Origin: a virus
Reading direction: 5' to 3' (one strand)
Length of the DNA stretch: 64,000 nt
IMG/VR virus record: IMGVR_UViG_3300032093_011758
Location: 1 to 64,000 of that record
Both the position numbers and the translations under genes were made by a program. The notes under the pieces are model-generated. The model made no database searches. It was not told where the DNA came from and saw only the letters and a list, made by a program, of their open reading frames with translations. Below, piece by piece: positions 40,260-56,336 of the stretch; position 1 is the stretch's first letter, and the number at the start of each line of letters is the position of its first letter.

Positions 40260-41012
40260 TTAGTTTTTTAAAATGTTACTTAAAAGACCCACGTATAACT
40301 TTTTGTATTTTTTCATTGAATTTCTTATTTCTTTAGTGGTCAAATTTGTCATTTCTCTTAAGGAGAGTAAAACGATGTTTTTATTGAATTTGTTGTTATC
40401 TGTATTTGATATTAAACTTTCATAGTTATCAAAAATATCTAAAAGAGCAATTCCAAGTTTCTTTTCATTCTCGTTTAGTTGTTGCTTATTGATATAATTT
40501 TTCAAGTCTATTTTAAACTGAATGATTATATTTTCAGAACTGAAATCATTTTCTTCTATTGTATATGAATATTTAACGTTTTCTTCAATAGAGGATGAAA
40601 TATCTTCATAAGATATTTTTCTATTCATTTCTTTTTGGTCTTTAATTATCTGACCCATCAGATAATTTTTACAAATAGTACCGAAATAAGAATACGCCTT
40701 TTTTTCCTTTGATGGTTTGAATTTATCAATTTTCGTCATCAAGAAGGAATGAGTATCCGCATGAATTTCTTCAAAATTCATATCCTTTCTATACAACTTA
40801 TACCTTCTAATAATTGAAGATATCATTTTGTCTAAGGGATCCCTTAAGTATTGATTATAAATTTTGTTTCTACCTTCAAATGTTTCTTCTTGTAAAAACA
40901 TTCTAACGGCCATTTCTTCTTTTACATCAAAATAATTCTCTTGTTTTGATCTTCTACCTCTTTTTTTTGTTTCATTACTTATAGAAATTCCGGTCAGTTC
41001 ATAAGATTCCAT
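40260..41012 (-). CDS. Phage late sigma factor (gp55-like)
   Basis: A 250-residue protein with a sigma-70 region 2: FEEIHADTHSFLMTKIDKF near residue 78 followed by KKAYSYFGTICKNYLMGQIIKDQ (in part AYSYFGTICKNYLMGQII), the core-binding and -10 recognition helices. The C-terminal half has no clear region 4, as in T4 gp55, which reads a -10 box only. The start at 41012 overlaps the upstream stop as TAATG; the longer frame to 41084 is less likely. It is the best candidate to direct host RNA polymerase to the TATTTAT elements. Confidence 0.78.
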   Translation of the reverse strand: MESYELTGISISNETKKRGRRSKQENYFDVKEEMAVRMFLQEETFEGRNKIYNQYLRDPLDKMISSIIRRYKLYRKDMNFEEIHADTHSFLMTKIDKFKPSKEKKAYSYFGTICKNYLMGQIIKDQKEMNRKISYEDISSSIEENVKYSYTIEENDFSSENIIIQFKIDLKNYINKQQLNENEKKLGIALLDIFDNYESLISNTDNNKFNKNIVLLSLREMTNLTTKEIRNSMKKYKKLYVGLLSNILKN

Positions 41013-41815
41013 TAAAATTGAGGCGTAAATTTCAATTGTCTTTCGTCTTTGAAGAAATATTCTTTTTTCGCGGATTCTATCCAAAATTTAACTTCTTGTT
41101 CAGTCAAGATGTTATCACCATTCTTGTAGTTCCAAAAAATAGATCCTTCTCTGAGATTGACGTGTTTATATCCCAATTTGGGGATGGTCATTATTTTGAC
41201 AGAATTAAAAGTTAATCTTAATAAGAATTCATATACGAAGGTTAGTTTAAAATTTCCTTTGAAGCCTCCATATTCTTTGATGATATCTTTTTTGACTACC
41301 ATACCCGCAGTTTGAAAGTTTTGAAAATTATGTAAAGTTTCATTTGTTAAAAAACCTACCTCTTGACTGAAATTAGATGCGAAAGTCGCTTCATTTGTAA
41401 ATCCAGCAAACAAACCCTTTTCATCAACATCAATAACAATAGGTAAAAAAGCTTTTACATCTTTGTAAAGATCTATGTATTTTTTTACATTATCAAACCA
41501 AATACCGGAGTATTCATCATCAAATTCTAAAAATGAAACCCATTCTGAAGATGCGGATTCAATTCCGGCATTCATTTGTTTTGCAAAATTTGGTTCATCA
41601 ATCCATTTGACTTTTTTTACATTTAAACTACCGAAATCATAATTGTTCAATTTGGTTTCTAAAAGTTCTTCATCTGTATGAACTATAACAAGTTCATTTA
41701 CAGAAACTTTTTGATTGATGATAGAATCAATTGCTTTTTTCAAATAGTCGTCAAAATCTCTAGCCGTGGCTGTCTTTATTGGTAAAATTATTGATACGTC
41801 AATTTTATTATCCAT
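41012..41815 (-). CDS. Family 2-like glycosyltransferase
   Basis: A 267-residue GT-A enzyme. DVSIILPIKTATARDFDDYL at the start, ELVIVHTDEE near 45 and FLEFDDEYSG near 96 (the DDE corresponds to the metal-binding DxD). The later part has a conserved Asn-rich GG segment. It would transfer a sugar from a nucleotide donor in the cytoplasm. It overlaps the neighbouring glycosyltransferase by eight bases and is coupled to the sigma gene after it. Confidence 0.8.
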   Translation of the reverse strand: MDNKIDVSIILPIKTATARDFDDYLKKAIDSIINQKVSVNELVIVHTDEELLETKLNNYDFGSLNVKKVKWIDEPNFAKQMNAGIESASSEWVSFLEFDDEYSGIWFDNVKKYIDLYKDVKAFLPIVIDVDEKGLFAGFTNEATFASNFSQEVGFLTNETLHNFQNFQTAGMVVKKDIIKEYGGFKGNFKLTFVYEFLLRLTFNSVKIMTIPKLGYKHVNLREGSIFWNYKNGDNILTEQEVKFWIESAKKEYFFKDERQLKFTPQF

Positions 41816-42869
41816 TTTCTTCAGTTTTTAATTTGTTTAATTGTTCTGTGAAAGATTTTTCTCTAATTTCTAAATATTCAGTAAATAATGTGACCACATT
41901 ATTTTCAAAAGTTTCTTTATTTGGTAAAGAATCCACCGTTTTTTTCATACCTTCATAGAGATCGGGACTTATGTTATCTTCCAACCAATTTTGTAAGAAA
42001 TCGGCAACGAAATCAGGTAATTTATTGTCTTCAGTAATCCAAATACCATTCTCAGCGTTTAACCAATGCGGATATAATGTAGGTACTTTTCCTATAACCG
42101 GTACTCCGCACTTCATTGATTCCAAAGGAAATGTACCAAAACCACTTGTTTCATCTATCCAAACACTTAAAAAACATTCTTTCAAGAAATTTGCAAAATC
42201 ACTTTCACTCAAACCTCTCATATCTCTGAAGGTTACCCATCTATATTGTGGAAATTTAAGGTAAAAAGTTTTAATGAAATTAATCGTTTTTCTCGGATCT
42301 CTTGAATGTACCGCCACAAAAGGTTTGGGTGGATATTTGTTTGTTTCAAAGCTCTCCGAGATCATAGGTGTCAAAACATCAATTGAAACATTCCTCATAA
42401 CTGTTGAAATGTATTCTTTTTGAAATTCAGACGTTGTGATACATTTTAAGAATCCGTAATTAGCCCAACCATATCCAGGTTGAAGTGTCTCTAACATATG
42501 GTCGTATGCTTGACATAAAACAACTTTACCACAAGGTAAATCCTTAATTTGTTCCATTACAAAACCATAAATTTCAGGAATAATGATTAAATCTTCAGGT
42601 GATATTTCTAAATTTTGACCTTCAATTGATTTGTGAGGTAATTCCATATACTCTTCACCTAACCATTCAGAAACACCCGTGTAATCAGGTTTTTCATGTA
42701 AGATTATTGGGTTAAACCCTGATTTTTTTAAGGCAAAACCTAACTGATAAATGTATCTAACTCCGGCTTTAGGATTTCCTTTTGTATCCTGAACAAATAG
42801 ATAAATTCTAGAACTTTTATTTTTTAGGTTTTCAATTGATTTTTCTAACTTTTCTACTTTTTGATCCAT
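41808..42869 (-). CDS. GT-B glycosyltransferase
   Basis: A 353-residue protein. RIYLFVQDTKGNPKAGVRY near residue 21 is the N-terminal Rossmann loop with the acceptor-side Gly run; the second domain has VAVHSRDPRKTINFIKTF near 193 and VWIDETSGFGTFPLESMKCGVPVIG near 245 (in part), the GT4 E-x7-E donor-site pattern. A soluble cytoplasmic transferase with unknown sugar. Coupled to the next transferase by overlap. Confidence 0.8.
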   Translation of the reverse strand: MDQKVEKLEKSIENLKNKSSRIYLFVQDTKGNPKAGVRYIYQLGFALKKSGFNPIILHEKPDYTGVSEWLGEEYMELPHKSIEGQNLEISPEDLIIIPEIYGFVMEQIKDLPCGKVVLCQAYDHMLETLQPGYGWANYGFLKCITTSEFQKEYISTVMRNVSIDVLTPMISESFETNKYPPKPFVAVHSRDPRKTINFIKTFYLKFPQYRWVTFRDMRGLSESDFANFLKECFLSVWIDETSGFGTFPLESMKCGVPVIGKVPTLYPHWLNAENGIWITEDNKLPDFVADFLQNWLEDNISPDLYEGMKKTVDSLPNKETFENNVVTLFTEYLEIREKSFTEQLNKLKTEENG

Positions 42870-42871
42870 GA

Positions 42872-43147
42872 TTAATATGATTTAATTATTCTTTTATTCA
42901 ATAAGGTGTTAAATGCCAATCTAAATGGTATAGAAAGATGTTTTGAACTTTTTGAACCTAATGACTCATCAATTTCTTCACCTCCGTCCATTAACACTTC
43001 TAGCATAAGTTTTATTGATTCATACCTAACAATATTGATGTGATGTTCTCCGGTTAAACCGCTGATTGGATTATCAATCATAACATACTTATCAATTTCA
43101 TCAGTATCTATAAAGTAATGTTCATTCATTATTTCTAACATACTCAT
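42872..43147 (-). CDS. Hypothetical protein (91 aa)
   Basis: Unrecognised small protein starting MSMLEIMNEHYFIDTD, acidic, with a helix HHINIVRYESIKLMLEVLMD. Overlaps the upstream gene by four bases (ATGA) and precedes the glycosyltransferase by two, so it is part of the long minus-strand operon. Confidence 0.6.
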   Translation of the reverse strand: MSMLEIMNEHYFIDTDEIDKYVMIDNPISGLTGEHHINIVRYESIKLMLEVLMDGGEEIDESLGSKSSKHLSIPFRLAFNTLLNKRIIKSY

Positions 43148-43791
43148 AAATTTAAATTTTTGATTATAGATTTTAACTCCTTAATAGATGAAATTGTCAG
43201 ATCATTCTTAATTTCTTTATTGTATGAAGTTTCAAATTTTATAATAATTTTATTTTTGGGGTAATTCAATAATAAGTCAGGATTAGCAGTAAGTAAAATG
43301 TCTAATTCATCCCACATAGATTTTTTAGTGGAATTACTAAAAAATTTTATTTTTTCTAATAAACATCCAAATTTTGAGAGAAAAAAAAGAGTTGCGGGTT
43401 TTGATTTACCTATTTCATCTGAAACAATTAGTAAGTCATGACTATCTCTAATGTCTAAATAAAACTCATTTAAATCGTTCATAGAAGACATTTCAGTAGA
43501 TCCTGCATGACCAAATATTTGCATAGGAAAATCTCTATACATAAAATCGTATAGTTCTTCATCTGATTGAAATGCAAAATGTTCTCTTAAATTCAATGAG
43601 GTGATTTCACTTAAGATCTCATATTTGAACGGTTTGAAGATTTCTAACTCCGTATTACCTGATGAATCTAATTGATAAGTTTCAGTATCAGAATCATTTT
43701 GGCTTTCGTCTACTAAATGTTTCTGATATAATTGGGATATTTTTCCAACAGTGTCTCTTAAAACACCATTTATATCAATCGCTATTCTCAT
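43144..43791 (-). CDS. HAD-superfamily phosphatase-like protein
   Basis: A 215-residue protein starting MRIAIDINGVLRDT: the HAD motif I, but with Asn where the second catalytic Asp normally stands (DIN for DxD). SDEIGKSKPATLFFLSKFG near 120 carries the motif III Lys, and DELDILLTANPDLLL near 160 the motif IV acidic pair. It may be a nucleotidase-like enzyme or an inactive relative. It overlaps the PhoH gene by 17 bases. Confidence 0.7.
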   Translation of the reverse strand: MRIAIDINGVLRDTVGKISQLYQKHLVDESQNDSDTETYQLDSSGNTELEIFKPFKYEILSEITSLNLREHFAFQSDEELYDFMYRDFPMQIFGHAGSTEMSSMNDLNEFYLDIRDSHDLLIVSDEIGKSKPATLFFLSKFGCLLEKIKFFSNSTKKSMWDELDILLTANPDLLLNYPKNKIIIKFETSYNKEIKNDLTISSIKELKSIIKNLNL

Positions 43792-44530
43792 TATTTTCGT
43801 AATTTTTTAATAATTTGGATATCAAAGGATTTCTTACAACATCTTCATCTTTAAATTGAAAGATCCCGACATCATCAGTGTTTTTGTGTTTTCTTAAGGC
43901 GTCCCACAATCCTGTTTGAGTTTTGTTTTTGTGTCTATCAAACTGCTCCAAATCCCCTGAGATAAAAAATTTAGAATTGAATCCGATCCTTGTCAATAGT
44001 AATTTCATTTGTCCGGGAGTTGCGTTTTGAGCTTCTTCAAAAATTAATATAGTATTATCTATGTTCATTCCTCTCATGTAAGCTAATGCAAAAACCTCAA
44101 TAACATCAATTTCTTTTAGTTTTTCGCGAGCCTCTTTACCTATAATTTTATTAAGAAGATAATAAGAAGGGAAAATATACGGATCTAATTTTTCTTCCAC
44201 ATTTCCCGGTAGTGATCCTAATTTTTCTTCGGCTTCTACTGCGGGTCTTACAATTACTATTTTTTCGTAGGGTGTTGTTGGGTCTGATAAAAGATCAACA
44301 GCCGCTTTCATGGATATATAGCTTTTACCAACACCGGCAGGTCCTGAACAAATAGTGATTTGATTTTTAGTTAAAATATCATAGTATATTTTTTGACTCT
44401 CAGATAAAAATTTTTCCTTTGTCTTTTTTTTAATTATTTGAGTTATCTGTTCTTTTTTAGTTAATTTTGGTTTAAACTCAGTTTGAGTTTCTTCTTTTTT
44501 TACTGTTGTTCTTTTTTTTCTTTCTGTCAT
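43775..44530 (-). CDS. phoH: PhoH-like ATPase
   Basis: A 251-residue protein with CSGPAGVGKSYISMKAA near residue 58 (Walker A), IVIVRPAVEAEEKLGSLPG near 88 and TILIFEEAQNATPGQMKLLL near 155 (Walker B), closing with FISGDLEQFD. These are the PhoH signatures. PhoH is common in marine phages; it is a nucleotide-driven, RNA-related enzyme of uncertain role. The 40-residue Lys-rich N-terminus is a disordered extension. It lies between HAD and methyltransferase genes. Confidence 0.92.
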   Translation of the reverse strand: MTERKKRTTVKKEETQTEFKPKLTKKEQITQIIKKKTKEKFLSESQKIYYDILTKNQITICSGPAGVGKSYISMKAAVDLLSDPTTPYEKIVIVRPAVEAEEKLGSLPGNVEEKLDPYIFPSYYLLNKIIGKEAREKLKEIDVIEVFALAYMRGMNIDNTILIFEEAQNATPGQMKLLLTRIGFNSKFFISGDLEQFDRHKNKTQTGLWDALRKHKNTDDVGIFQFKDEDVVRNPLISKLLKNYENNENSD

Positions 44531-44538
44531 AAATTAAA

Positions 44539-45129
44539 TTATTTTTTTACTACAATTAGTAAATCATCATATCTCCTTTTTATATGTCTAAGATCAACTA
44601 ATTCTATGCTTTTGTGTTCTATATTTTTAATACTTTCCATCAATATTTTAACATAATTACCATCTTGAATATCTTCTATTATTAGAATTCCGTTTTCTTT
44701 GAGTAAAGGTAAATAATTTTGTAGTGTATATATTTGTGAATCTAAAGAATGTGGGCCGTCTTCTACAATTATATCAAACCCTTCAGGGTACGTATCAGAT
44801 AAAAATTTAAGATTTTCGTCTTTGAAGGCATCTATTTCGTAAAACACATATCTTTCAGGATTCATTGACGAAAATATATACTCATTTACTTGATTTTTAA
44901 TATCAACTAAAACCAGTTGTGATTGGGGTAAATAATCATGCCACAGTAAGGATGACCCACCGTATTGTACCCCTATCTCAAGAATTGTTGTTTTTTTATT
45001 GAGATATGATTCAAAACTTTCGGCGTAAAAGTTATCGTAACTATGGTCTGAAGCTTTATCGGTACCACCTCTATGATTAAATCCGTTTATTTGATGTTTT
45101 TCTAAAATTTCTATAATTTTGTTAGTCAT
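44539..45129 (-). CDS. Class I SAM methyltransferase (glycan type)
   Basis: A 196-residue protein with TTILEIGVQYGGSSLLW near residue 44 as the SAM-binding loop, QLVLVDIKNQ as the second acidic residue and FDIIVEDGPHSLDSQI near 117, with an Asp-Gly-x-His metal motif, as in MycE-type sugar O-methyltransferases. Its reading frame overlaps the next methyltransferase by eight bases. Acceptor unknown; a sugar hydroxyl is likely from context. Confidence 0.8.
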   Translation of the reverse strand: MTNKIIEILEKHQINGFNHRGGTDKASDHSYDNFYAESFESYLNKKTTILEIGVQYGGSSLLWHDYLPQSQLVLVDIKNQVNEYIFSSMNPERYVFYEIDAFKDENLKFLSDTYPEGFDIIVEDGPHSLDSQIYTLQNYLPLLKENGILIIEDIQDGNYVKILMESIKNIEHKSIELVDLRHIKRRYDDLLIVVKK

Positions 45130-45772
45130 ATTTTTTTAAAATTTTAATTCCTGTATAGTCAATTTTTTCAATTTTATATTTGATTCCCGAAGATTCAAAA
45201 TATTCATCTACGGCCTTTTTAGAACCCGCCCAATGTCCATAGTCATCTACAATTAAAATCCCACGATCAACTAATTTTGGGTATAGAACATCAAGTTCTT
45301 TTTTTGTTGATTTATACCAATCTGTGTCTAATCTTAAAATACATATATTTTCAGGAGTATTTGACAACTCATCTAAAGTTTCACAAACGTCTCCTACTAC
45401 AAATTTTATGTTCTCTTTAGGAAACATAGAGGAAGATAAATTATTTTTTACTTCGCTTAAAGAAGAATAACAAAAAACTTGAGGTAAAATATCTGAAGCT
45501 TTACGGTTGTTTAAATCAATGTCAACTTCTTCGGGTTCAGTCATCCCTCTGAAAGTATCGTACAACCAAACTTTTTTGTCAAAAATTTCGTGAAAATTAA
45601 GATATTCAATAATACCTAGTATATTACCTCCTTTCCAAACACCACATTCTACAATATCACCACTTATTCTTTCTTTACGTATGTACTCTAAAGAATTATA
45701 TAACTCAGATATTCTTTCAACAGATGTCATTGAGTAGGGACTGACAAGTTTTATGAATTTTTCAAGGTTCAT
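45122..45772 (-). CDS. TylF/MycF-family O-methyltransferase
   Basis: A 216-residue protein. DIVECGVWKGGNILGII near residue 39 is the SAM loop, VWLYDTFRGMTEPE near 67 matches the LYDTFxGM motif of the TylF family, and LRLDTDWYKSTKKELDVLYP near 150 with LIVDDYGHWAGSKKAVD near 180 carry the metal-binding Asp residues. These enzymes methylate hydroxyls of deoxysugars in macrolide and polysaccharide pathways. Confidence 0.88.
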   Translation of the reverse strand: MNLEKFIKLVSPYSMTSVERISELYNSLEYIRKERISGDIVECGVWKGGNILGIIEYLNFHEIFDKKVWLYDTFRGMTEPEEVDIDLNNRKASDILPQVFCYSSLSEVKNNLSSSMFPKENIKFVVGDVCETLDELSNTPENICILRLDTDWYKSTKKELDVLYPKLVDRGILIVDDYGHWAGSKKAVDEYFESSGIKYKIEKIDYTGIKILKKYD

Positions 45773-45778
45773 ATTTTT

Positions 45779-46321
45779 TTACTTTTTTGTTAAACAGAAT
45801 GATGGACAACCATCTTTTGTAAGATATTTCATTTCATAATTTTCTTGATTACAAAATTCATCAATCGCTCTCACAACACCAGGAAACATAGCTTTAGAAT
45901 AATCATGACCACAGATAAGTCCATCCTTTTTAATTTTTTTAAAAGAAATTATCAAATCTTTTTTCACCCCTTCGTAAGAATGATCACCATCAATGTAAAT
46001 ATAATCAAAATATTCATTAGGGAAAGTTTCAAGAATATCTTGACTATATCCTTTATGTAAAGTCACGACTTTATTGTCTGAATATGTTTTTTTTAAATTT
46101 TCATATTCAGATTCTAAGGAAGTCCAAACAATATTATTACCATCTTTATCCCCTGAACACATTTGACCTTCAAAAATATCAATTAAATGTAATTCTTCCG
46201 GATCCATTTTTTGTAAAATCAACTTAGAAAAATCCCCTTTGAAAACGCCGATTTCACAAAATTTTTTTTTCTTGTCAAGAATTTCAATTAATTCATCTCT
46301 TGAGTTTAAAATATTTATCAT
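45779..46321 (-). CDS. Class I SAM methyltransferase (Methyltransf_24 type)
   Basis: A 180-residue protein: KKFCEIGVFKGDFSKLIL near residue 19 (SAM loop), ELHLIDIFEG near 45, DYIYIDGDHSYEGVKKDL near 108 (metal or acceptor motif DGDHSY), ICGHDYSKAMFPGV near 137. The arrangement matches class I sugar methyltransferases. Six bases separate it from TylF-like gene downstream, implying a common methylation pathway. Confidence 0.82.
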   Translation of the reverse strand: MINILNSRDELIEILDKKKKFCEIGVFKGDFSKLILQKMDPEELHLIDIFEGQMCSGDKDGNNIVWTSLESEYENLKKTYSDNKVVTLHKGYSQDILETFPNEYFDYIYIDGDHSYEGVKKDLIISFKKIKKDGLICGHDYSKAMFPGVVRAIDEFCNQENYEMKYLTKDGCPSFCLTKK

Positions 46322-46326
46322 ATTAT

Positions 46327-47052
46327 TTAATTTTTATATTTAAATTCTTTCATTTTTGAAAATTTATTGGAATAATTACCGGGACCGCCAGCAAAATGTA
46401 ATGCCGACCCATTATACTCTTTAAGATTGTATCCATTGTGACTTACCATGTTTGATAAATCTGTTTTATATAAATTGTTTCTAAAAAGATAGACATTAAA
46501 AAATGGTTGCTCTAAACATATATTTACCAATTGTTTATTTTGCAATAAAAAAGTTTCAATCTTTTCAAGATGATTCACAAGTTTTGAGTTGAATCCAAAA
46601 ATTCCGGCATTAATTCCTTTAATTTGTTTTTTTTCTATGATCAATTTTTCCTCAGTTGTTAATATTTTTCCTCCCCACCATTCTTCAGACATTAATGAAT
46701 TTTCATTACTTACATAAAAAAAATCTTCATTTATGTTATTAAAAATATTATCAGGTGAGGATGTCCAAACTATATCCGCATCACAAAAAATTATTTTATC
46801 ATAATCTTTTAAATTTGGGTATTTATAAATTTTTAATTTATTTGCACTAGATTCTAACAAACCCGAAGTTTCAATAGTTAGAAATAAAGGTTTTTTTTCA
46901 AATTCTAAACTATTCAAAAGTAATTCTTGTAAATTGGTGATGAAAAGTACGTCACCATCATACTTTTGATAATACAAACTTTCTAAACATATTTTGAGAA
47001 GGTTTATGTATTCGGGATTATTACTAATAGTGAAATATATTAATTTTCTCAT
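46327..47052 (-). CDS. GT8-like glycosyltransferase
   Basis: A 241-residue GT-A protein. KIIFCDADIVWTSSPDNIF near residue 86 has the DAD metal motif, GINAGIFGFNSK near 143 the conserved NAG-F loop, and ALHFAGGPGNYSNK near 215 the C-terminal HFxGxxKP-like segment of family 8. Retaining transfer from UDP-sugar is expected from the family. Overlaps the upstream transferase by four bases. Confidence 0.8.
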   Translation of the reverse strand: MRKLIYFTISNNPEYINLLKICLESLYYQKYDGDVLFITNLQELLLNSLEFEKKPLFLTIETSGLLESSANKLKIYKYPNLKDYDKIIFCDADIVWTSSPDNIFNNINEDFFYVSNENSLMSEEWWGGKILTTEEKLIIEKKQIKGINAGIFGFNSKLVNHLEKIETFLLQNKQLVNICLEQPFFNVYLFRNNLYKTDLSNMVSHNGYNLKEYNGSALHFAGGPGNYSNKFSKMKEFKYKN

Positions 47053-47825
47053 TTTGAACTAATTATTTTATTTTTCCAAAATTCGCAATCCAACATTTTT
47101 TTATCAAAATGTTTTTTTTTAATTTCATTATACTTTTCGTTTATGAGTTCTTCATCATTCAGTTCGTTAATAGAATTCAAAATAATAATTGGAAACATTT
47201 TATACATTTCATAAATTTTGAAATTTCCGGTTTTAATTGTGATTGGTATGCGATCAGAGTATAAAACTTCCCACAACCTGTGTGTATCCACTCCATTTCC
47301 GGCGGGACACACGACCATTTCATAATCTAGAATTTTGTCAAAAAATTCTCTAAGTGATAAGTTGGGTCCCTCCCAATCAATGAATTTTGAAATTAAACAT
47401 TTCTGTTTTACTTCGTTTCTATGTGAATAATTAGTGTTTATCTGAAAATTTGAATAAATCTTTCTTTTTGGTTTTATATTTAATTTGCGATTAAGTAATA
47501 TTTCTTTTTCTAATACTCTTTCATGATATCCAATCCCATGACCATTTCTAAAACTCTCTATTTTATTTTCTATACCAAGAGGTATTGGTTCAACAATATT
47601 ATTATTACTTAATATATTTTGACCATACCATTTTTTTACATTTTTAGGTAATATTTTTAAATGTTGGTCTGTAATAGGGTAATCTGAATTACCAGTGATC
47701 AATATTATGTCATTATCCAAATTTGATATCGTGTCAAAATCACTTACTATAAAATCTGTTTTACAGAAAAAAATACGTTTCCCATCGTGGAGTTCTGAAA
47801 ATTTATTCAATTGTAAAAAATCCAT
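47049..47825 (-). CDS. Exostosin-like glycosyltransferase
   Basis: A 258-residue protein. EPIPLGIENK near residue 83 and DYEMVVCPAGNGVDTHRLWE near 180 followed by VLYSDRIPITIK form the pattern of exostosin (GT47)-like donor domains: an Asp/Asn-Gly-x-Asp-x-x-Arg-x-(F/W)-E core. It is shorter than full-length exostosins and lacks a membrane anchor. Soluble transferase of unknown specificity within the coupled glycan operon. Confidence 0.65.
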   Translation of the reverse strand: MDFLQLNKFSELHDGKRIFFCKTDFIVSDFDTISNLDNDIILITGNSDYPITDQHLKILPKNVKKWYGQNILSNNNIVEPIPLGIENKIESFRNGHGIGYHERVLEKEILLNRKLNIKPKRKIYSNFQINTNYSHRNEVKQKCLISKFIDWEGPNLSLREFFDKILDYEMVVCPAGNGVDTHRLWEVLYSDRIPITIKTGNFKIYEMYKMFPIIILNSINELNDEELINEKYNEIKKKHFDKKMLDCEFWKNKIISSK

Positions 47826-47827
47826 AA

Positions 47828-48421
47828 TTATTTTTTTTCAAAAATTGCAAACCCATTTCCTTCATGTGAATACTCAATCATTTGGTATGTGTCATCAATT
47901 TTTAACTCGTCAAATATTTTTTTTGTTTTGATTTCTCTGATATCATCTAAAATTACTGTATTAGTAATATCTTTTAGTTTCTGCCATTCCAAATAGGTTG
48001 AAAACTCACCGCCATCCAAGATTAATAAATCTATTTTTTTAGGTAGTTTTTCTAAAACAAATTCACACATATCCAAATTTTCCAAATCTTCCTTTAACCA
48101 AGTTTTTCTTGGTTCTTCTAATTGCATGTCAGATGTATAGTTTTCAACTTCATCTTTTGTTACAATTGATCCATTTAATAGTGTAAACTTATCTAAGAAA
48201 TTTAACAAATTTTTTTTAGCTATTTTGTAAAAATTAGGATTTGACTCCAATGAAAAGAACTTTGTATCTTCTTTTATATTTTCTAATATACAAGAAGTTG
48301 ACCCTAAACCATTCCAACATCCAATTTCTACTATAGTTTCGTAATTTTTTTGATTAATGGTTTTTATTAAAATTTTTCCTCTTTCAGTATTTGAATTAAT
48401 TTGACCCGGAGTATTAATCAT
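47828..48421 (-). CDS. Class I SAM methyltransferase (197 aa)
   Basis: A 197-residue protein with YETIVEIGCWNGLGSTSCIL near residue 28 (SAM loop), KFFSLESNPNFYKIAKKNLL near 55 and IDLLILDGGEFSTYLEWQKL near 136. NTVILDDIRE near 160 completes the fold. Fourth methyltransferase of this operon. Its ATG overlaps the stop of the upstream epimerase-like gene. Confidence 0.78.
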   Translation of the reverse strand: MINTPGQINSNTERGKILIKTINQKNYETIVEIGCWNGLGSTSCILENIKEDTKFFSLESNPNFYKIAKKNLLNFLDKFTLLNGSIVTKDEVENYTSDMQLEEPRKTWLKEDLENLDMCEFVLEKLPKKIDLLILDGGEFSTYLEWQKLKDITNTVILDDIREIKTKKIFDELKIDDTYQMIEYSHEGNGFAIFEKK

Positions 48422-49239
48422 TTTTTTAAATTTTTTAATTTAATTTTCAAATCTTGAATTGTGTCATTCAAGAGTTCCTTATAAGGATAAAAACAAGTAT
48501 CACTTTTTAAATAGTATTCTTTTTTGATTTCATATTCGTTGTATTTATTTTTGTTTTCTATCACAAAATCTTCATATGATAATTCAAAATTATCGTATAT
48601 ATCTCTAATGAAATCATTTACAAAAGTTAATCTACCTGATCCAATTATTGTGTGTTCCGATTGTTCAATTGATTTTTTCACTACAAATTTGGGGTGTATT
48701 AAATCTCTGTAAAAATAGGTATCACCTATGTCAATTTTGTTTTTGTTTATTATTGAGTTAAACACTTTACCGAAAAGAAAATTATTATCTCTATAGATGG
48801 AATTGAAGTTAAAGGGGAATAAAATTACTACGTTTTTGAATTCTTCCTTATTTTTTATTATATAGTCATATATTCTATATTTTGAATTTAAATAGGGTGT
48901 TTCGTAAAAATTTGGTTTCATAGATAAATCTATCCTACCGTCATATTTGTTCCATAGTTCACAAGTTGAATATATTACTATTTTGTTTGATATTGATTTG
49001 AATTTATTTATAATGTCTAAAGTTAAATGAAAATTGACTTGATCGTAAATTTCTATATTTTCAATATATTTTCTTGACTCTCCTAAACATATAAAAACAT
49101 TATTCCAATTGTTTTTAGTATATATTTTTTCTTCTATGTTCCTTGATGAAACTTTTACATATTCGTTGGGGAAGTAATAGGATAACTGTGAGGTGTTCCC
49201 TATTACAATATTCCTAAACGTTTGGTTTGAGTTTTTCAT
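48418..49239 (-). CDS. NAD(P)-dependent sugar epimerase/dehydratase-like protein
   Basis: A 273-residue Rossmann-fold protein of the extended SDR type. IVIYSTCELWNKYDG near residue 98 gives the active-site Ser/Thr region, and YLNSKYRIYDY near 130 the Y-x3-K catalytic pair. The N-terminal nucleotide loop (VIGNTSQLSYYF) lacks the full GxxGxxG, so cofactor binding may be altered or weak. It would modify a nucleotide sugar used by neighbouring transferases. Overlaps both neighbours. Confidence 0.68.
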   Translation of the reverse strand: MKNSNQTFRNIVIGNTSQLSYYFPNEYVKVSSRNIEEKIYTKNNWNNVFICLGESRKYIENIEIYDQVNFHLTLDIINKFKSISNKIVIYSTCELWNKYDGRIDLSMKPNFYETPYLNSKYRIYDYIIKNKEEFKNVVILFPFNFNSIYRDNNFLFGKVFNSIINKNKIDIGDTYFYRDLIHPKFVVKKSIEQSEHTIIGSGRLTFVNDFIRDIYDNFELSYEDFVIENKNKYNEYEIKKEYYLKSDTCFYPYKELLNDTIQDLKIKLKNLKK

Positions 49240-49579
49240 ATCCCATTTTTTTTTCGTTTAGAACAGAAGAAAAAAACTTTTTTTGTAAACTTTCTTTGCT
49301 TATCATTCTTTGATAGTTACATTTGTCCACATAACTGGCTAAAACATCATCAGTTTTTGCTTTGTCGACGGCTTCAAAGGTTAAATTGTTGGATTCAGTT
49401 AAATCAGAATATTCTTTTGAATGAATTATTTCTTCAAATTTCTGATGTCCTATTTGTTCAATCAATTCATTTTTGATTTTTTCCTGATATTCTGAAACAT
49501 CTGACCCTTTTTGTTTTTTTAACTCTAAAATTGACAAGAAATCAAACGCATAAGCTTCATCTACACTTATTTTTAACAT
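49214..49579 (-). CDS. Hypothetical helical protein (121 aa)
   Basis: A 121-residue charged helical protein starting MLKISVDEAYAFDFLSILEL. Residues 5-60 form two helices with a heptad-like spacing. No motif recognised. Embedded in the glycan operon with 26-base overlap to the epimerase-like gene, so it may be a partner protein rather than an enzyme. Confidence 0.6.
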   Translation of the reverse strand: MLKISVDEAYAFDFLSILELKKQKGSDVSEYQEKIKNELIEQIGHQKFEEIIHSKEYSDLTESNNLTFEAVDKAKTDDVLASYVDKCNYQRMISKESLQKKFFSSVLNEKKMGYEKLKPNV

Positions 49580-49582
49580 AAA

Positions 49583-50236
49583 TTAATATATAATTTTGAA
49601 TTTATTTAACCCTACTGAATTCAAATACGGACTATAATTTCTCACATATTGGTGGTAATAGAAGGTGGGGTTATCCATTTTATAACTGTTTACTAAACAT
49701 TTTATACTTGATTCCATTAAATGGACTTCTTCGGCATTTTCTATTAATGTTATCAAATTAAATATATTATATTTTTTAGGATTTTCAATTATTTTTATAT
49801 CTTTTCTTACTTTATTTAGATCTACATTATGTGTAAAGATATACTTTTCTTTTTGTGGGTTAAGATCTTCAACAATTTTTTTTTCTAACTCATAATCTCT
49901 TTCTAAATAAAATTCATCGTATCTCATAGAGAAAGGGAGAGATTTACCAACATAAAAAGATTCATCAAATGTTTGACCCCCGGTCATGAATTCAAAACCT
50001 ACTCGTATTACATCTTTTTGAATGTTTTTTTCTTTTATAAATTTTTCTACATCTTTATCCTCACCAATATTCAATATTTTTATATTATCATTATCTCGAT
50101 ACATGTATTCCACATTTTCAAAGTTGTGTGGTTTGCAGAAAATTGAAATATTATCATATACTTTTTGAAAGTGTCTTGAAAGTCCATTGCATATTATGTG
50201 ATCACCTAGACCTAAATGATGATAGATGTATTTCAT
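49583..50236 (-). CDS. Glycosyltransferase-like protein (GT9-like)
   Basis: A 217-residue protein starting MKYIYHHLGLGDHIICNGL: the G-x-GDxI pattern of heptosyltransferase-type GT-B enzymes. VHLMESSIKCLVNSYKMD near residue 173 resembles the donor-binding helix. It is shorter than GT9 enzymes (about 350), so one domain may be reduced. Overlaps the upstream gene by four bases. Confidence 0.65.
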   Translation of the reverse strand: MKYIYHHLGLGDHIICNGLSRHFQKVYDNISIFCKPHNFENVEYMYRDNDNIKILNIGEDKDVEKFIKEKNIQKDVIRVGFEFMTGGQTFDESFYVGKSLPFSMRYDEFYLERDYELEKKIVEDLNPQKEKYIFTHNVDLNKVRKDIKIIENPKKYNIFNLITLIENAEEVHLMESSIKCLVNSYKMDNPTFYYHQYVRNYSPYLNSVGLNKFKIIY

Positions 50237-50922
50237 TTTGAAAAATTTTTGTAAACTGACTCCATTTCATATGATTTTATATAATGAAATGTAAGTGGTT
50301 TATCAATTAACTTAGAATAAAATGAAGGTGATTGAGAATACATACCATCACCATGAGTCAATTTCAGATTTAAAAATTTTTTTACCATATAGCTTATCGC
50401 AATATCACCACATGCGTAGCATGATTCCACAAGTTTTCCATTGATATACATATCTAACCACTCTTTATTGAATTGATCTATGAAAGGATATATTTTTTTC
50501 ATTGCTGAATTACTCAAAAAAAACCCTGCACCCCCAGCAAAAACCTCAAAATCTAAACCATCTAATTTTTCAAATCTGTTATATGTTTCACAAAATATGG
50601 TGTCAATACTAGAATCTTGTTCTCGTAAAAAAGAACTGATACTATCTTTAAAAAGCACGTGGTCACAACCTACAACACAATACCAATCATCTTCAGGATT
50701 TTTTTCATACATGAATTTTAATGCATATTGTTGTTTAGGAAAAAAACTATTATAATCTTCATTCGCATCAGGAACCCGTATCAGATTAGTATTTTCAACA
50801 TTATTACCACCAAAATAATATATGTGGTCAAAATCTTTTCCCCATGAATTTTGGCATGAGGTATATCTATCTTTTAAATTTATTGATGTTACAACACCAA
50901 TTGATACTATACTTTTTGTCAT
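50233..50922 (-). CDS. Fringe-like (GT31) glycosyltransferase
   Basis: A 229-residue protein. DDWYCVVGCDHVLF near residue 71 carries the metal-binding acidic region, FEVFAGGAGFFLSNSAMKKI near 122 matches the GGAGxxLS loop of Fringe-type beta-1,3-transferases, CGDIAISYMVKK near 167 gives the catalytic Asp, and TFHYIKSYEM near 214 the C-terminal His. It lacks the membrane anchor of eukaryotic relatives. Such enzymes extend O-linked sugars, which fits a protein-glycosylation role here. Confidence 0.75.
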   Translation of the reverse strand: MTKSIVSIGVVTSINLKDRYTSCQNSWGKDFDHIYYFGGNNVENTNLIRVPDANEDYNSFFPKQQYALKFMYEKNPEDDWYCVVGCDHVLFKDSISSFLREQDSSIDTIFCETYNRFEKLDGLDFEVFAGGAGFFLSNSAMKKIYPFIDQFNKEWLDMYINGKLVESCYACGDIAISYMVKKFLNLKLTHGDGMYSQSPSFYSKLIDKPLTFHYIKSYEMESVYKNFSK

Positions 50923-51662
50923 AAATAGTTTTTAAAGTAATTTTTTATTATTTTATTTTTATAATCAGATTCTGCTGTGAAAGAAAAACATCTATTATGT
51001 TTTTCTAAAATAGGTTTTAGTACAGGATAAAGACATACTGCCTGATGTCTTACCATACCCACCCAAAATTCGGCAAAAAATCTATCAGGTGAAGTTGTTT
51101 TTAACAAATATTCAGATATACTTGGTAACGAAGATAAGAATTCAGATTTTGACCACCAAAAATTTCCTGAAAAGTGGGCTGTGGATCCAGGTACTGATCC
51201 GGAAGGTATATAGTTACATCCAACAATATCGTAGTTTTTTAATTCTTCAATACAAATATTATAGTGATCTATACAAAAATGTTCCATGATGTTTCTCCAA
51301 TTTTCTACATTTTTGTACGAATAATTACCGTAATCTTGATCTAAGATTCTTGTTGCACCTTTCGTGTGAAAATACAAGTAATATTGATCATTATTTTTAA
51401 TCGCGTGTTTTTGTAGTAAATCTAATGTAGATAACTCATATAAATTACTTGGAGAAAATGTAATATTTCTTGTAATAGATTCAAATAGGTTCAAAATTGT
51501 TTCAGAAGGTTTTATAGAATTTTCTTCTAGCGCAAAATTTATATAAAAATCAATATTTTCTATTTTTTCTTCTAAGAATTTGATCTTAGAAAATTGATCA
51601 ATTATTATTGATTCTGAATTTTTTTTCCAAAAAACATGATAAAAAACATTAATTTTATTCAT
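50919..51662 (-). CDS. Glycosyltransferase-like protein (HxKG / HFSGNFWW type)
   Basis: A 247-residue protein with YYLYFHTKGATRI near residue 97, WRNIMEHFCIDHY near 125 and TAHFSGNFWWSKSEFLSSLP near 161. This combination occurs in an unnumbered group of bacterial and phage GT-A-like proteins found in polysaccharide clusters. No classic DxD was located. Call rests on the family pattern and operon context. Confidence 0.65.
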   Translation of the reverse strand: MNKINVFYHVFWKKNSESIIIDQFSKIKFLEEKIENIDFYINFALEENSIKPSETILNLFESITRNITFSPSNLYELSTLDLLQKHAIKNNDQYYLYFHTKGATRILDQDYGNYSYKNVENWRNIMEHFCIDHYNICIEELKNYDIVGCNYIPSGSVPGSTAHFSGNFWWSKSEFLSSLPSISEYLLKTTSPDRFFAEFWVGMVRHQAVCLYPVLKPILEKHNRCFSFTAESDYKNKIIKNYFKNYL

Positions 51663-52324
51663 TATATACTAACCCTTAAATAATCATATCCGATTGGTTT
51701 ATCATTTTCGTCTAATCTATCACCAACGAATCTCCCAATTTCTCTTGATATTGGGAATGGTTTTTTTTCAAAAAACTCGTCATGGGTGCATCTATCATTT
51801 TCAAAGATAGAATAAATAGTTTTAAGAAATGCTTGGTCATTTCCATAAATGTTTTGTTTGGTAAGTTGGGATTTATAGATCATATCTTTAAGAGGAACTA
51901 CTCCCGATTTTATTCCCCACATACCGCCTAAAATACCTAATGAATCATTTCCATAAGGGATTCTATGTGCCGGATGGTCTCTCATTACATGTAAAGATTT
52001 ACCGGAACTAATCCATTCATCAACCGCCAACTTTTCCCTCAAAGTTATTCTTGAATCTGCATCTCTGAAAATTGCATATTCTGAATATGGTAAACTTTCA
52101 GCCAAGAAACGCCAAAACATTCCGTACAAATTTTCATTCGTAACATCAATGACTTCTACATTTAATTCTTTTAAACTTTGTATTGTAAGATCCGGAACGG
52201 AGTTGTCATAATAAACAACCATTTGCCAATCAGGATAAATTTGTTTCCAAAGTTCGGCGTTTCTAATTGCACCAATATTATATACTGGTTTATCACCCCA
52301 TAAACTAAAACTTAGATACTTCAT
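51662..52324 (-). CDS. GT-A glycosyltransferase-like protein (DADSR type)
   Basis: A 220-residue protein. LSFSLWGDKPVYNIGAIRN at the start, FWRFLAESLPYSEYAIFRDADSRI near residue 70 (in part, metal-binding DADS), HVMRDHPAH near 112 and ILGGMWGIKSG near 130. This pattern recurs in phage and bacterial glycan loci. Overlaps both neighbours by one to four bases. Confidence 0.72.
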   Translation of the reverse strand: MKYLSFSLWGDKPVYNIGAIRNAELWKQIYPDWQMVVYYDNSVPDLTIQSLKELNVEVIDVTNENLYGMFWRFLAESLPYSEYAIFRDADSRITLREKLAVDEWISSGKSLHVMRDHPAHRIPYGNDSLGILGGMWGIKSGVVPLKDMIYKSQLTKQNIYGNDQAFLKTIYSIFENDRCTHDEFFEKKPFPISREIGRFVGDRLDENDKPIGYDYLRVSI

Positions 52325-53745
52325 AGATTTTCAACTAATTTTTTCATTCCAGTTTCAAAATCCATTTTATGAGGTTGGGTTTCGTGTGAATTCATTTGAA
52401 GGTGTTGTATTAATCCTCTTGTTAATGCAACTTTTTTACTCTTAAGAAGATAGAAAAAAGATATCGCCCTTTCAAAAGAATGTCCACAATACGTGTCTTC
52501 TTTTATAAAATCTATAAGTGGGTCAAACCAACTCATAAACTCATCAAAAATCTCACTCTTCATTGTGATATTACTTGTGCTTGACCACAACAAATTAGGG
52601 TTATTTCTAATTGTTGCTGTCAAAGTTTTTTCAAAATCAATTTTATATACTGATTTTATACCTTCAAATAATTTATCAACTAACTTTCTTTCTCTTATGT
52701 ATTGGCTATGATTTGCGGGGAATGGTATATATCCAACCATCTCCCAATTTTCATAAAAGAATTTACTCTGAGATTGAGGGACGTTTTCGGCTAAAATGAT
52801 ATCATATTCAAATAAGTTTACGTATCTCTTAGTTATTAATTTATTCTTCCACAAAAGATACCATCCTGTAAATGCGGTAAATAATGGGTACTTTTCTAAA
52901 TTATTTTCAAAGTTTCTTGCTACAATTACATTTGGCAAAGATTCAACTTTATCTATGTCTCTATTACCCAAAAATACGTATTTGTAGTTTTTGAAATTTT
53001 TGAATTTTCCTTTTTCCTCAAAGTCCAAAACTATCCTTTGATCATGGACAAAAATAAATGTCTCACAATCATCTTCAATTTTTGTTATATCCATTGGTAA
53101 ATTATTTTTATATTTTTCTGCGAATTCAATTCTATTTGATTCCCATTGTTGATTTGTTTGACCAATAGATAAATGAGTGACTCTGTTATTGAAAGTAACT
53201 CCTACTTTTACACCATCTATAAAATTAGGTAAACAAAATCCTAAATCGTAAAAGTGAAATCCATCAATAGATTCATCAAACTTATGTTTTATTTTTGTTT
53301 TATCAAATGCGATGAATAACCCATCAACTATGACAGTTTCTTCAATTTTATCATTTAGATTTTGAGAGTAAGTTGATGTCCATTTTTTTCCTTCATGTTT
53401 GTGATTAACAATACCATACATTGTTTGTGGTACTTTCCACCATTGTCCGGATTTGTCTAAAAATTTAGTTCCTGCTAAACCAAGAATACCATACTCAGGA
53501 TTTTTTTCAAAACTCCTCAACAATTTATCCCCCCAGTTTTTTGTGTCAAATTCTAAATCATCATGACACAATACAATAATATCATGATTTGATTCTTCAA
53601 TTATTTCATTGTAAACCTGAGATAACGATTTTTCTCCATTGTTTATCTTTTCAATAATTTGAACTTCTTTATACATACATGTCTTTTGTAAGTAATCCTT
53701 GTATGTCGGGTTTGAATTTCTTGTACTATATCCTATCGTTATCAT
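52321..53745 (-). CDS. Family 2-type glycosyltransferase with C-terminal extension
   Basis: A 474-residue protein. The N-terminal 220 residues form a GT-A domain: ITIGYSTRNSNPTYKDYLQ, then DIIVLCHDDLEFDTKNW near residue 54 (HDD metal motif) and VDGLFIAFDKTKI near 140. The C-terminal 250 residues look like a second domain (YKYVFLGNRDIDKV, AFTGWYLLWKNKLI, IILAENVPQS) with an acidic pair near 312 that may be another transferase domain. First enzyme after dUTPase in the block. Confidence 0.75.
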   Translation of the reverse strand: MITIGYSTRNSNPTYKDYLQKTCMYKEVQIIEKINNGEKSLSQVYNEIIEESNHDIIVLCHDDLEFDTKNWGDKLLRSFEKNPEYGILGLAGTKFLDKSGQWWKVPQTMYGIVNHKHEGKKWTSTYSQNLNDKIEETVIVDGLFIAFDKTKIKHKFDESIDGFHFYDLGFCLPNFIDGVKVGVTFNNRVTHLSIGQTNQQWESNRIEFAEKYKNNLPMDITKIEDDCETFIFVHDQRIVLDFEEKGKFKNFKNYKYVFLGNRDIDKVESLPNVIVARNFENNLEKYPLFTAFTGWYLLWKNKLITKRYVNLFEYDIILAENVPQSQSKFFYENWEMVGYIPFPANHSQYIRERKLVDKLFEGIKSVYKIDFEKTLTATIRNNPNLLWSSTSNITMKSEIFDEFMSWFDPLIDFIKEDTYCGHSFERAISFFYLLKSKKVALTRGLIQHLQMNSHETQPHKMDFETGMKKLVENL

Positions 53746-53757
53746 AATTTAACATTT

Positions 53758-54327
53758 TTAAATCCCTGTTGATCCGAATCCATTTTCATCTCTATCTTTT
53801 TTATCAACCGATTCAACTCTCGTTAGTGTTACCCAATCACCATTAATTACGGGGCTTAATACGGCTTGAGCAATTTTCATACCCTTATGAATTTTAATTT
53901 TTTCTTTTGAGGTGTTGAATAAAATTACTTTGATTTCCCCATTATATCCTGAATCTACAGTACCTGGAGTGTTTAATACAGTTAACCCTAAGTTCAAGGC
54001 TAAACCACTTTTTGGTCTTATTTGAATTTCTGTACCATCAGGAATATTAAATTTCAACCCTGTAGGAACTAACAATCTTCCAAAAGGTTCTATTTCTCCA
54101 TCAATTATTGAATATAAATCAAAGCCCGAGTCTGAAGGGTAGTTATATCCCGGTTCTACAGCATCTTCATTTGTCACCTCATACTTTACATCTCTTGTGG
54201 GATGATAATTATCAAATTGTTCTTCTAAATATTTTAAATCCAAACCGATATTTTTCATAATATCGTTAATTTTATCTTCTGAAAAATCATCATCTTCAAA
54301 AAATTTTGAAATGTCTTCGTTGATCAT
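53758..54327 (-). CDS. dut: dUTPase
   Basis: A 189-residue trimeric-type dUTPase with all five motifs: SDSGFDLYS (near 67), RPKSGLAL (near 106), LNTPGTVDSGYNGEI (near 118), GMKIAQAVL (near 145) and the C-terminal GFGSTG. An N-terminal extension of about 50 acidic residues is unusual. It hydrolyses dUTP to dUMP and keeps uracil out of phage DNA. It overlaps nothing but lies one base from the exonuclease gene. Confidence 0.93.
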   Translation of the reverse strand: MINEDISKFFEDDDFSEDKINDIMKNIGLDLKYLEEQFDNYHPTRDVKYEVTNEDAVEPGYNYPSDSGFDLYSIIDGEIEPFGRLLVPTGLKFNIPDGTEIQIRPKSGLALNLGLTVLNTPGTVDSGYNGEIKVILFNTSKEKIKIHKGMKIAQAVLSPVINGDWVTLTRVESVDKKDRDENGFGSTGI

Positions 54328-54328
54328 G

Positions 54329-55030
54329 TTACTCTAAATTTTTTAATTTTTTTATTATGTGTATTAATACTTCAACATCTTTTTCGCAGTATTCTGTAAT
54401 TTCTTTTAATTTGTTTTCTTCCCAATATGCGTGATGTACTTTATCTCCGGTTACCTCACCATCTTTTGGTGTTGGTATATCCATAGTTGTACATAAAAGA
54501 TCTAATGAACCTATTGAGGTGTAAGCTCCGTATTGCCAAATTTCTTTTGTGTCTATCGCTTTGATCTCCCAAGGTTTTGTATCATATGATGGAAGAATAG
54601 AAGGAGGCATAAGTCCATTTATAATCATACGTTTCGCCAGCATCGGTATGTCAAAGTTCTTTAAATTATGCCCGCAAAGATAAAAATCTAACTTACCACA
54701 TCTATCTAAAAGTTTCTGACAATCTTTTAGAAGTTGCTTTTCATCATCACCTGAAAATGTTTGTTTTTTTATTTCATCTTTATCTGTGACAAATGCAACA
54801 CTTACACATACAATTTTTGCAAATTCAGGAACAAGAGCCGCTCTTTTTAAGAAAACCTGATCTAATGATAACGTATCATCTTCAGGAAATCTTTTCCTGA
54901 ACCAATCAATGTACTTAATATACTGATCTGCAACCTTTGGGTTAGATGTTCTACAATCTTCATACGACTTACATCCACCGACAGTTTCAATATCAAGAAA
55001 CAAAATTTTTGTTAAAGGAATCTTAATCAT
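54329..55030 (-). CDS. DnaQ-like 3'-5' exonuclease (PolB-exo2 type)
   Basis: A 233-residue protein with LFLDIETVGG near residue 10 (ExoI, DxE), LCGHNLKNFDIPMLAKR near 118 (ExoII, N-x(2)-FD) and TEYCEKDVEVLIHII near 214 (ExoIII, YxxxD-like). The spacing matches predicted 3'-5' exonucleases related to PolB proofreading domains. It would trim or repair DNA in replication. It is alone without a polymerase in this window. Confidence 0.85.
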   Translation of the reverse strand: MIKIPLTKILFLDIETVGGCKSYEDCRTSNPKVADQYIKYIDWFRKRFPEDDTLSLDQVFLKRAALVPEFAKIVCVSVAFVTDKDEIKKQTFSGDDEKQLLKDCQKLLDRCGKLDFYLCGHNLKNFDIPMLAKRMIINGLMPPSILPSYDTKPWEIKAIDTKEIWQYGAYTSIGSLDLLCTTMDIPTPKDGEVTGDKVHHAYWEENKLKEITEYCEKDVEVLIHIIKKLKNLE

Positions 55031-55035
55031 TTATT

Positions 55036-56250
55036 TTATTTTACAAGTGAACGATACCATTCCGCTCTATCTTTGGTTACTTTGTTAAGATCGTATGTGT
55101 CTTTAACTGTTTCATATAATCTTTCTCCCATATCAGTAATTAAGTTTGGATTCTTAACTAATTTCTCAATATACTTAGCCCAATCAGAGTGATTTCTGTT
55201 TTCATCAACTAATAAAGCGTTTCCATCCACAAAATTACCATTTTTTAAGCAATGTGTCAAATCTATTGTGTAAGGACCCACATTAGACGCTATGAGGGCC
55301 TTTTTATAAAATCCCGCTTCAATAACCTTCAGTTGAGATTTCATTCGGTTGAATATGTGATTTTTGATCGGAGCTAAAGATATGTCAAATTTTGAATAAT
55401 TTTTAGCGTAAGAAGTGACAGGTCTTGTCCAAACCCTTGAATAGTTTAAATTTTCAACACCCGGATATTCTTCCTCTTTGAATTTTTTCAGGAATTTTAT
55501 GTAGTCTTCAGGTAATCCATAATAATTATCTGTTACGATTTGTTCATATGTGGCCCAAACTGTTTCTTCAGGTTTGATTGGTCTTTGTTTTTGTTCTCCG
55601 GTTTTTTGATTTATCTCTGTAATTGTACCCCGAGTATCAAAACCACATAAAACCATTTGTAGTTTGTCTCTCATAGAACTTATTTTTGACATTGAAGGAA
55701 TCATAAGTTCCAAATCGTGCAGATGAGAAGAACCTCCTAACCAGCCGATTCTGATTCTTTCATTTTCTGGTGTTGGTTCTTTAAACTGAGGTTCGTCCGG
55801 ATTGATTGCATTAGGAAAAATAAAAACATTTTTATTGAACTTAGAAATCTCATCTGCAAACAAAGATGTTGTAGTCGTTACAAACTCTGAGTTTTTAAGA
55901 TTATTGACGATCTTTTCATTTATTTTATTGATTCTAATGATGTCGTGAATTGGATGTTCTTTGGTTGGAAGCCAATAATCATCAATATCCACGATAGCCT
56001 TAATACCTTGGTTTTTTAACCAATTGAGAATTTGAGGGGTGTTTTCATAAATATGTCCGATATTTCTGTGAATATGTACAATTTGGTAATTTTTCCAATA
56101 ATTAGGATCATTCAATTTAGGTTCATAATCAATATCAACATGAAATTCATCGGGATACATGTTTTGTAGGAAAATGTGAGGATCAACAGATCTGAACTTC
56201 CCAACACCTGTTTTATCGGATGGGAGAACTAAAACATTAATTTTTGTCAT
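55036..56250 (-). CDS. GT4-like glycosyltransferase (404 aa)
   Basis: A 404-residue GT-B protein. KINVLVLPSDKTGVGKFRSV at the start, IVHIHRNIGHIY near residue 57, VDIDDYWLP near 89, RIGWLGGSSHLHDL near 178, and an acceptor/donor region ending KSQLKVIEAGFYKKALIAS near 304 (the E-x-G donor site). It would use a nucleotide sugar. Its own TATTTAT element lies 67 bases upstream, so it may start the long transcript through the glycan block. Confidence 0.82.
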   Translation of the reverse strand: MTKINVLVLPSDKTGVGKFRSVDPHIFLQNMYPDEFHVDIDYEPKLNDPNYWKNYQIVHIHRNIGHIYENTPQILNWLKNQGIKAIVDIDDYWLPTKEHPIHDIIRINKINEKIVNNLKNSEFVTTTTSLFADEISKFNKNVFIFPNAINPDEPQFKEPTPENERIRIGWLGGSSHLHDLELMIPSMSKISSMRDKLQMVLCGFDTRGTITEINQKTGEQKQRPIKPEETVWATYEQIVTDNYYGLPEDYIKFLKKFKEEEYPGVENLNYSRVWTRPVTSYAKNYSKFDISLAPIKNHIFNRMKSQLKVIEAGFYKKALIASNVGPYTIDLTHCLKNGNFVDGNALLVDENRNHSDWAKYIEKLVKNPNLITDMGERLYETVKDTYDLNKVTKDRAEWYRSLVK

Positions 56251-56317
56251 TACTTTTTAAAGAAGAATAACAAAAATTAGATTATAAAGAAAGAATTATG
56301 CTACTTTTTTTATTTAA

Positions 56318-56324: not shown

Positions 56325-56336
56325 GACAAAATAAAA

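Follow-up and report, generated by a model that had tools for sequence, protein, structure and literature searches.

Why should a tailed phage carry a long run of genes for building glycans, and on what would their product be assembled? The question is raised by a 64,000-nucleotide stretch of DNA, here called the window (bases 1-64000 of the 72,361-bp IMG/VR virus record IMGVR_UViG_3300032093_011758). It derives from a large T4-like lake phage, of which this fragment carries the genes for terminase, portal, major capsid protein, and an ATP-dependent protease. The minus strand of the window encodes, between 41012 and 56250, eight supported and two probable glycosyltransferases (GTs) together with three sound and one weak S-adenosylmethionine (SAM) methyltransferases (Table 1). 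The middle of this span is an exchangeable cassette held in a conserved frame, a feature missed by an earlier reading of the same DNA (the original prediction), and we lean slightly toward the view that frame and cassette together direct the stepwise, cytoplasmic assembly of a glycan on a virion protein.

The frame emerges from comparison with 63 viral contigs of up to 380 kb, found by a search with the protein encoded at 52321. It runs s5-s4-s3-s2-s1-GT4a-exonuclease-dUTPase-GT2A-(GTu1)-[variable]-PhoH-HAD-u91-GT4b-GT2B-sigma-like, and this order holds in nearly all relatives besides L003, which is the same phage as the window, as far as each contig extends. The part between GT2A and PhoH differs among relatives in gene content and number. 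Its length ranges from 1.6 to 9.6 kb among the 33 islands that are complete, that of the window included; when partial islands are counted as well, there are 568 island genes in 151 families, of which 73 are singletons. Where the flank proteins of two relatives are 80-95% identical, on average 17% of the island families are common to both and 34% of the pairs have none in common; at flank identities of at least 95%, 93% of island families are common, eight of the nine pairs being in effect the same phage. The boundaries of the exchange are sharp. L004 and L005 have flanks 77-87% DNA-identical to the window on both sides by blastn, and the constant intervals provide an internal control for the points at which homology ends; these points lie at 44474 and 51680 in the comparison with L005, with no homology between, and almost coincide with the bounds found with L004. 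The cassette occupies 7.1 kb in the window and about 3.3 kb in L004 and L005, and the G+C content of its genes (0.24-0.29) is somewhat lower than that of the left frame genes (0.29-0.33). Conserved flanks, a middle replaced wholesale, and a content of glycan enzymes together make this an exchangeable locus.

Read from one representative per family, the islands encode, among the families listed, transferases (GT2, GT11, exostosin, and Caps_synth), methyltransferases (FkbM, TylF, CmcI, and others), sugar-nucleotide enzymes (GDP-mannose dehydratase, NAD-dependent epimerase, RmlD, DegT aminotransferase, and UDP-galactopyranose mutase), hexapeptide and GNAT acetyltransferases, and sulfotransferases. 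Such a gene set is that of an O-antigen locus minus its membrane part. The many singletons and a few off-theme members, such as an NAD synthase and an alcohol dehydrogenase, would fit a general cargo hot spot whose genes form no single pathway and include many passengers, but the listed families are overwhelmingly glycan-related, the islands are flanked by pairs of core GTs, and a comparable set of GTs and methyltransferases recurs in a 735-kb metagenomic phage; we consider such a hot spot very improbable. In that phage (LR756501, 318290-336958), a run of about 20 same-strand glycan-type genes includes homologs of 51662 and 49583, a fusion of the 50233 (GT31) and 50919 (GTu2) homologs, and several methyltransferases, suggesting that genes of the cassette are passed among phages that are unrelated. 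GT4a has homologs there and in phi92-like phages. The run also holds a homolog (49%) of the sugar C-methyltransferase that had been predicted at 28.6 kb of the window. The prediction of this gene is borne out, and its tie to the glycan genes is strengthened, because the LR756501 homolog sits in a cassette-like run; the gene is absent from 22 other records. A 1122-aa multidomain open reading frame (ORF) lies in the same LR756501 run.

None of the 568 island proteins is polytopic, that is, has two or more hydrophobic segments, and no Bac_transf, Wzx-type flippase, or GtrA was found in 23 records (3.1 Mb, some redundant) by searches whose positive controls gave matches in 9, 13, and 7 genomes, respectively. 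The simplest interpretation is that the glycan is assembled step by step in the cytoplasm, and the original proposal of a methylated-glycan pathway with no flippase, polymerase, or membrane-anchored enzyme is supported for the lineage as a whole. Gtr-type serotype conversion and lipid-linked O-antigen synthesis would call for GtrA, a polyprenyl-phosphate sugar transferase, a flippase, or a polytopic GT, none of which was seen; the locus resembles instead the systems that glycosylate serine-rich-repeat proteins, with soluble GTs only and no flippase (an oligosaccharyltransferase itself was not searched for). The enzymes could still remodel a host surface glycan or a lipid-linked sugar during infection, for superinfection exclusion, serotype conversion, or energy diversion, as the O-antigen-like gene content might lead one to expect and as cyanophage sugar clusters have been interpreted; such remodeling would, however, depend on host flippases and acceptors throughout, and in view of the missing membrane proteins we regard it as unlikely. 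Since NTP_transferase occurs in only 3 of the 23 records, most members of the lineage probably take activated sugars from the host.

The original prediction named a phage protein or DNA as the acceptor, and DNA modification by phage GTs is well known. An Asn-versus-Asp criterion separates thymidylate synthase (TS) from dCMP hydroxymethylase, and TS-family genes, present in seven of the 23 records (which are incomplete), resemble ordinary ThyA and keep the dUMP-type Asn, as read by eye; no base hydroxymethylase, on which glycosylation of the T4 type depends, was recognized among them. The TS-family protein of L074 (G008) is divergent and, at 281 aa, differs from the ThyA of the other relatives, which is longer. 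Searches for Tet_JBP and HMUDK gave no match and, run without a positive control, carry little weight. DNA glycosylation is one option offered in the description of the moraphages (PMC12619734) and would agree with the solubility of all island enzymes. The GTs would then hypermodify a modified base, and cassette exchange would track host restriction or glycan-sensing defense, but acetyl- and sulfotransferases and about ten GTs would be unusual for DNA modification, and with the ThyA-like genes this weakens the case for DNA to the point where we doubt it.

A virion protein is favored because of the gene neighborhood in the cultured cyanophage S-SRM01 and because of precedents in mycobacteriophages, Megavirinae, chloroviruses, and the Fap1 adhesin, to which we return below. 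In S-SRM01 (NC_070963.1, 219508-238065), a homolog of 50919 lies within a sugar-enzyme cluster that encodes a GT2-methyltransferase fusion (gp347), a GDP-mannose-dehydratase-like enzyme, and an annotated sulfotransferase and is located downstream of the baseplate and long-tail-fiber genes; Mtase24 homologs are also present near the tail-fiber genes. We infer a division of labor in which the soluble core GTs (GT4a, the tandem GT2A, GT4b, and GT2B) would make a lineage-wide core oligosaccharide and the cassette GTs and methyltransferases would build a phage-specific outer part, shaped in relatives also by sugar-nucleotide enzymes and acetyl- and sulfotransferases. Nucleotide sugars would be added one after another, in the cytoplasm of the host, to a virion protein without any carrier in between; for this protein the adjoining Thr/Pro-rich, fiber-like proteins are the leading candidates and the capsid the alternative. 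Replacement of a whole cassette would alter the sugar coat of the particle, and the benefit would probably lie in (i) altered surface interactions, (ii) shielding of exposed stalks, or (iii) escape from readers of virion sugars.

Thr/Pro-rich proteins adjoin the glycan genes in the window and in 34 loci of the 63, and many of the remaining contigs end early. In serine-rich-repeat systems a GtfA/GtfB priming pair acts on a Ser/Thr-repeat acceptor; the present locus has two GT4-like core enzymes and Thr/Pro-repeat proteins nearby, but GT4a has no sequence match to any PDB chain. Three Thr/Pro-rich proteins with TPTNT repeats occur in a row (62411-64000; L002 1734-3038 and 3929-6136), with one residue in two being Thr over long stretches. 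The T4-late-promoter-like TATAAATA precedes the fiber-like gene (60198), not the glycan genes. Several points weigh against assembly on a virion protein. Repeats rich in Thr and Pro are widespread among environmental phages. ORFs of this kind occur in all 80 loci that were read, and in a pattern scan GT4a was found in 8 of 30 longer contigs with these repeats, so the association is not specific; we treat the proteins as candidate acceptors only, not as positive evidence. The lineage has no cultured member; the four core GTs are weakly assigned to substrates; no priming enzyme was recognized; and at E 0.1 the GT4a profile retrieves nothing from the PDB, not even the known O-GlcNAc primers.

The original count of about nine GTs and four methyltransferases mostly holds, the methyltransferase at 47828 being a weak candidate. 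Matches to GT2 (41012), Fringe/GT31 (50233), GT2_5 (52321), and the methyltransferases at 44539, 45122, and 45779 exceed the Pfam cut-offs, whereas those to GT4 (41808), GT8 (46327), RXYLT1_C/exostosin (47049), and the methyltransferase at 47828 fall below curated cut-offs. Among the families originally named, GT2 and GT31 are thus upheld, as are GT4, through the PHROGs match of 55036, and the TylF type at 45122, while GT8 and exostosin are matched below threshold. The GT9-like protein at 49583 shares with six relatives an invariant GT9-like start, HLGxGDHIICNGL, and is counted as a probable GT; of the two further GT-like families, 51662 is supported by its fold and carries an invariant RDxDSR motif, and 50919 has the GT31-fused homolog described above. 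The proposed epimerase-like short-chain dehydrogenase/reductase (SDR) at 48418 could not be confirmed, having no Pfam, NCBIfam, or PDB match, no island relative, and no N-terminal Gly-rich motif. PDB sequence searches with GT4a, GT2A, GTu1, and the GT9-like protein also gave no credible match, and an NCBIfam scan of the unassigned cassette genes yielded nothing useful. Five genes of the span, which the original prediction had passed over, are non-glycan core genes: PhoH (43775), HAD (43144), a 91-aa ORF (42872), dUTPase (53758), and exonuclease (54329). About half of the gene junctions, rather than most, overlap (by 1-26 bp), the others lying within about 15 bp. A glycan of eight or more sugars, as had been proposed, cannot be read from gene counts, which fix neither donors nor linkages nor acceptors, and the GTs may serve different chains.

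The structure prediction that had been suggested for assigning the transferases was run for two of them. The AlphaFold model of 51662 (pLDDT, the predicted local distance difference test, 87) has a GT-A fold that Foldseek places close to glycogenin and GT8. The fold of 52321 is best matched by two enzymes, the bifunctional WbbM and heparosan synthase 2, which suggests a tandem two-domain GT; the C-terminal domain is modeled well and the N-terminal domain poorly, and the N-terminal half is assigned by Pfam. GT2A is modular, with residues 1-220 constant in the lineage and a C-terminal domain that differs by class; the whole protein measures 469-477, 507-514, 541-547, or 709-842 aa in relatives.

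Table 1. Genes and boundaries of the glycan locus and its surroundings, in window coordinates
Feature	Position	Strand	Evidence
Exchangeable cassette, bounded by loss of DNA homology to L004	44549-51676	-	blastn
Core GT4a, GT4-like, left end of constant frame	55036-56250	-	phrog_7162 9e-46; Pfam 3e-4; 58 loci
Core DNA-polymerase-type 3'-5' exonuclease, frame, non-glycan	54329-55030	-	PF10108 1.5e-14; 57 loci
Core dUTPase-like, frame, non-glycan	53758-54327	-	dUTPase motifs by eye; 61 loci
Core GT2A, predicted tandem two-domain GT	52321-53745	-	PF13712 4.5e-25; fold; 62 loci
GTu1, GT-A fold, glycogenin/GT8-like, semi-core, left edge of exchanged DNA	51662-52324	-	Foldseek 3e-8; 18 loci
GTu2, probable GT, family not assigned	50919-51662	-	homologs in S-SRM01, LR756501; no profile match
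Fringe/GT31-like GT	50233-50922	-	PF02434 1.3e-7
GT9-like probable GT	49583-50236	-	N-terminal motif in 6 relatives; no profile match
121-aa ORF	49214-49579	-	no match (Pfam, PHROGs)
Originally 'epimerase-like SDR', unconfirmed	48418-49239	-	no match
Weak SAM methyltransferase	47828-48421	-	PF13578 0.003, below cut-off
Exostosin/RXYLT1-like GT	47049-47825	-	PF24785 4e-4
GT8-like GT	46327-47052	-	PF01501 8e-4
SAM methyltransferase (Methyltransf_24)	45779-46321	-	1.5e-17
TylF-type O-methyltransferase	45122-45772	-	PF05711 9.8e-42
SAM methyltransferase (Methyltransf_24)	44539-45129	-	1.6e-8
Core PhoH-like ATPase, right cassette border, non-glycan	43775-44530	-	by eye; 32 loci
Core HAD-like phosphatase gene	43144-43791	-	NT5C-like start, weak 0.07; 29 loci
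Core GT4b	41808-42869	-	PF00534 7.5e-5; 20 loci
Core GT2B	41012-41815	-	PF00535 1.1e-6; 11 loci
Sugar C-methyltransferase just downstream of major capsid gene	28614-29849	+	PF08484 3e-30
Fiber-like protein with poly-Thr tracts, candidate acceptor	60235-62421	+	46 loci
Thr/Pro-rich (TPTNT repeat) protein, candidate acceptor	62411-64000, on to record base 64099	+	

In the phage collection the nearest TerL matches, in a metagenomic 484-kb phage, Flavobacterium phage immuto, and cyanophages, are only 25-29% identical. A DNA search of 50,697 phage records with the glycan locus gave no match, nor did tblastn of GT2A and GT4b against the phage collection, which leaves no isolate for comparison. The TylF protein has relatives in bacterial genomes only in a Pelagibacteraceae metagenome-assembled genome and in Marivirga, from which a host cannot be assigned. 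The lineage is probably that of the moraphages, large freshwater T4-like phages published in November 2025 with 25 genomes and predicted to infect freshwater Bacteroidota, whose core includes a PhoH-like gene, a dUTPase, a sigma factor, and a ClpA-like protease and, by the authors' account, four putative GTs, discussed in terms of DNA or virion glycosylation (Perez-Hernandez et al. 2025, PMC12619734). The window has genes of each of these types, matched to the published list by description, and on the same footing the four core GTs of that list would be the frame GTs described here.

Several neighbors of the locus deserve mention. A weak sigma-70-like protein (40260-41084; TIGR02937, 0.003) borders the glycan frame on its downstream side and is conserved together with it, and a 136-aa protein with a weak WYL domain (58244-58654; 6e-5), possibly a regulator, is kept just upstream in 53 related loci. 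This phage alone has an insert between s1 and GT4a (56315-57661), which comprises an N6/N4 DNA methylase (56337-57167) and a 162-aa ORF; in L004 the two sides are joined directly, without the insert.

Phage virion glycosylation is little explored. We tentatively put forward, as possible rather than probable, that the site is a phage "serotype" locus, the counterpart of bacterial O-antigen loci, at which tailed phages exchange whole glycan cassettes and so clothe mucin-like Thr/Pro fibers in differing methylated, acetylated, or sulfated coats. If this were true, bacteriophages would diversify their particles in an antigen-like manner, comparable to the variation of surface antigens in bacteria. 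It would explain some of the unexamined moraphage islands and provide a source of soluble enzymes, encoded in clusters, for making methylated or sulfated glycans; the sugars on particles of closely related phages should then differ according to cassette.

Virus-encoded glycan clusters are in themselves of a known kind. In phi92, four annotated GTs stand in a row (gp163-166), and two of them, gp163 and gp164, are similar to GT4a (26%), but phi92 and S-SRM01 belong to other phage families without the frame seen here, and the functions of their clusters are likewise putative. For mycobacteriophages, to our knowledge, virion glycosylation involves few GTs and no exchangeable cassette. Phage-encoded GTs glycosylate capsid and tail-tube subunits there (Freeman et al. 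2023, as related in PMC12619734). In Megavirinae, clade-specific clusters of 6-33 viral genes for rare sugars and methylation decorate the capsid fibrils (PMC10117803), and chlorovirus N-glycans combine a conserved core with a virus-specific outer part, both built by viral GTs, in the account of PMC7826918. The former, however, are amoebal giant viruses with demonstrated sugars and no common genes shown, and in the latter the glycan, of known chemistry, is N-linked to the capsid protein of a eukaryotic virus, whereas the present bacteriophage system is known from its genes. A further parallel is the serine-rich-repeat adhesin Fap1, on whose Ser/Thr-rich repeats soluble GTs, one of them two-domain, act stepwise with no flippase (PMC5207161), but Fap1 is a bacterial adhesin, and the PDB search with GT4a gave no homology to priming enzymes. 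The moraphage study notes variable islands and urges their study but does not describe the GT frame, nor where the cassette lies, how it is exchanged, and which enzymes it encodes (PMC12619734). New here are the fixed site, the constant GTs that flank it, the wholesale exchange, the O-antigen-like enzymes without membrane proteins, and the genes held in common with a huge phage.

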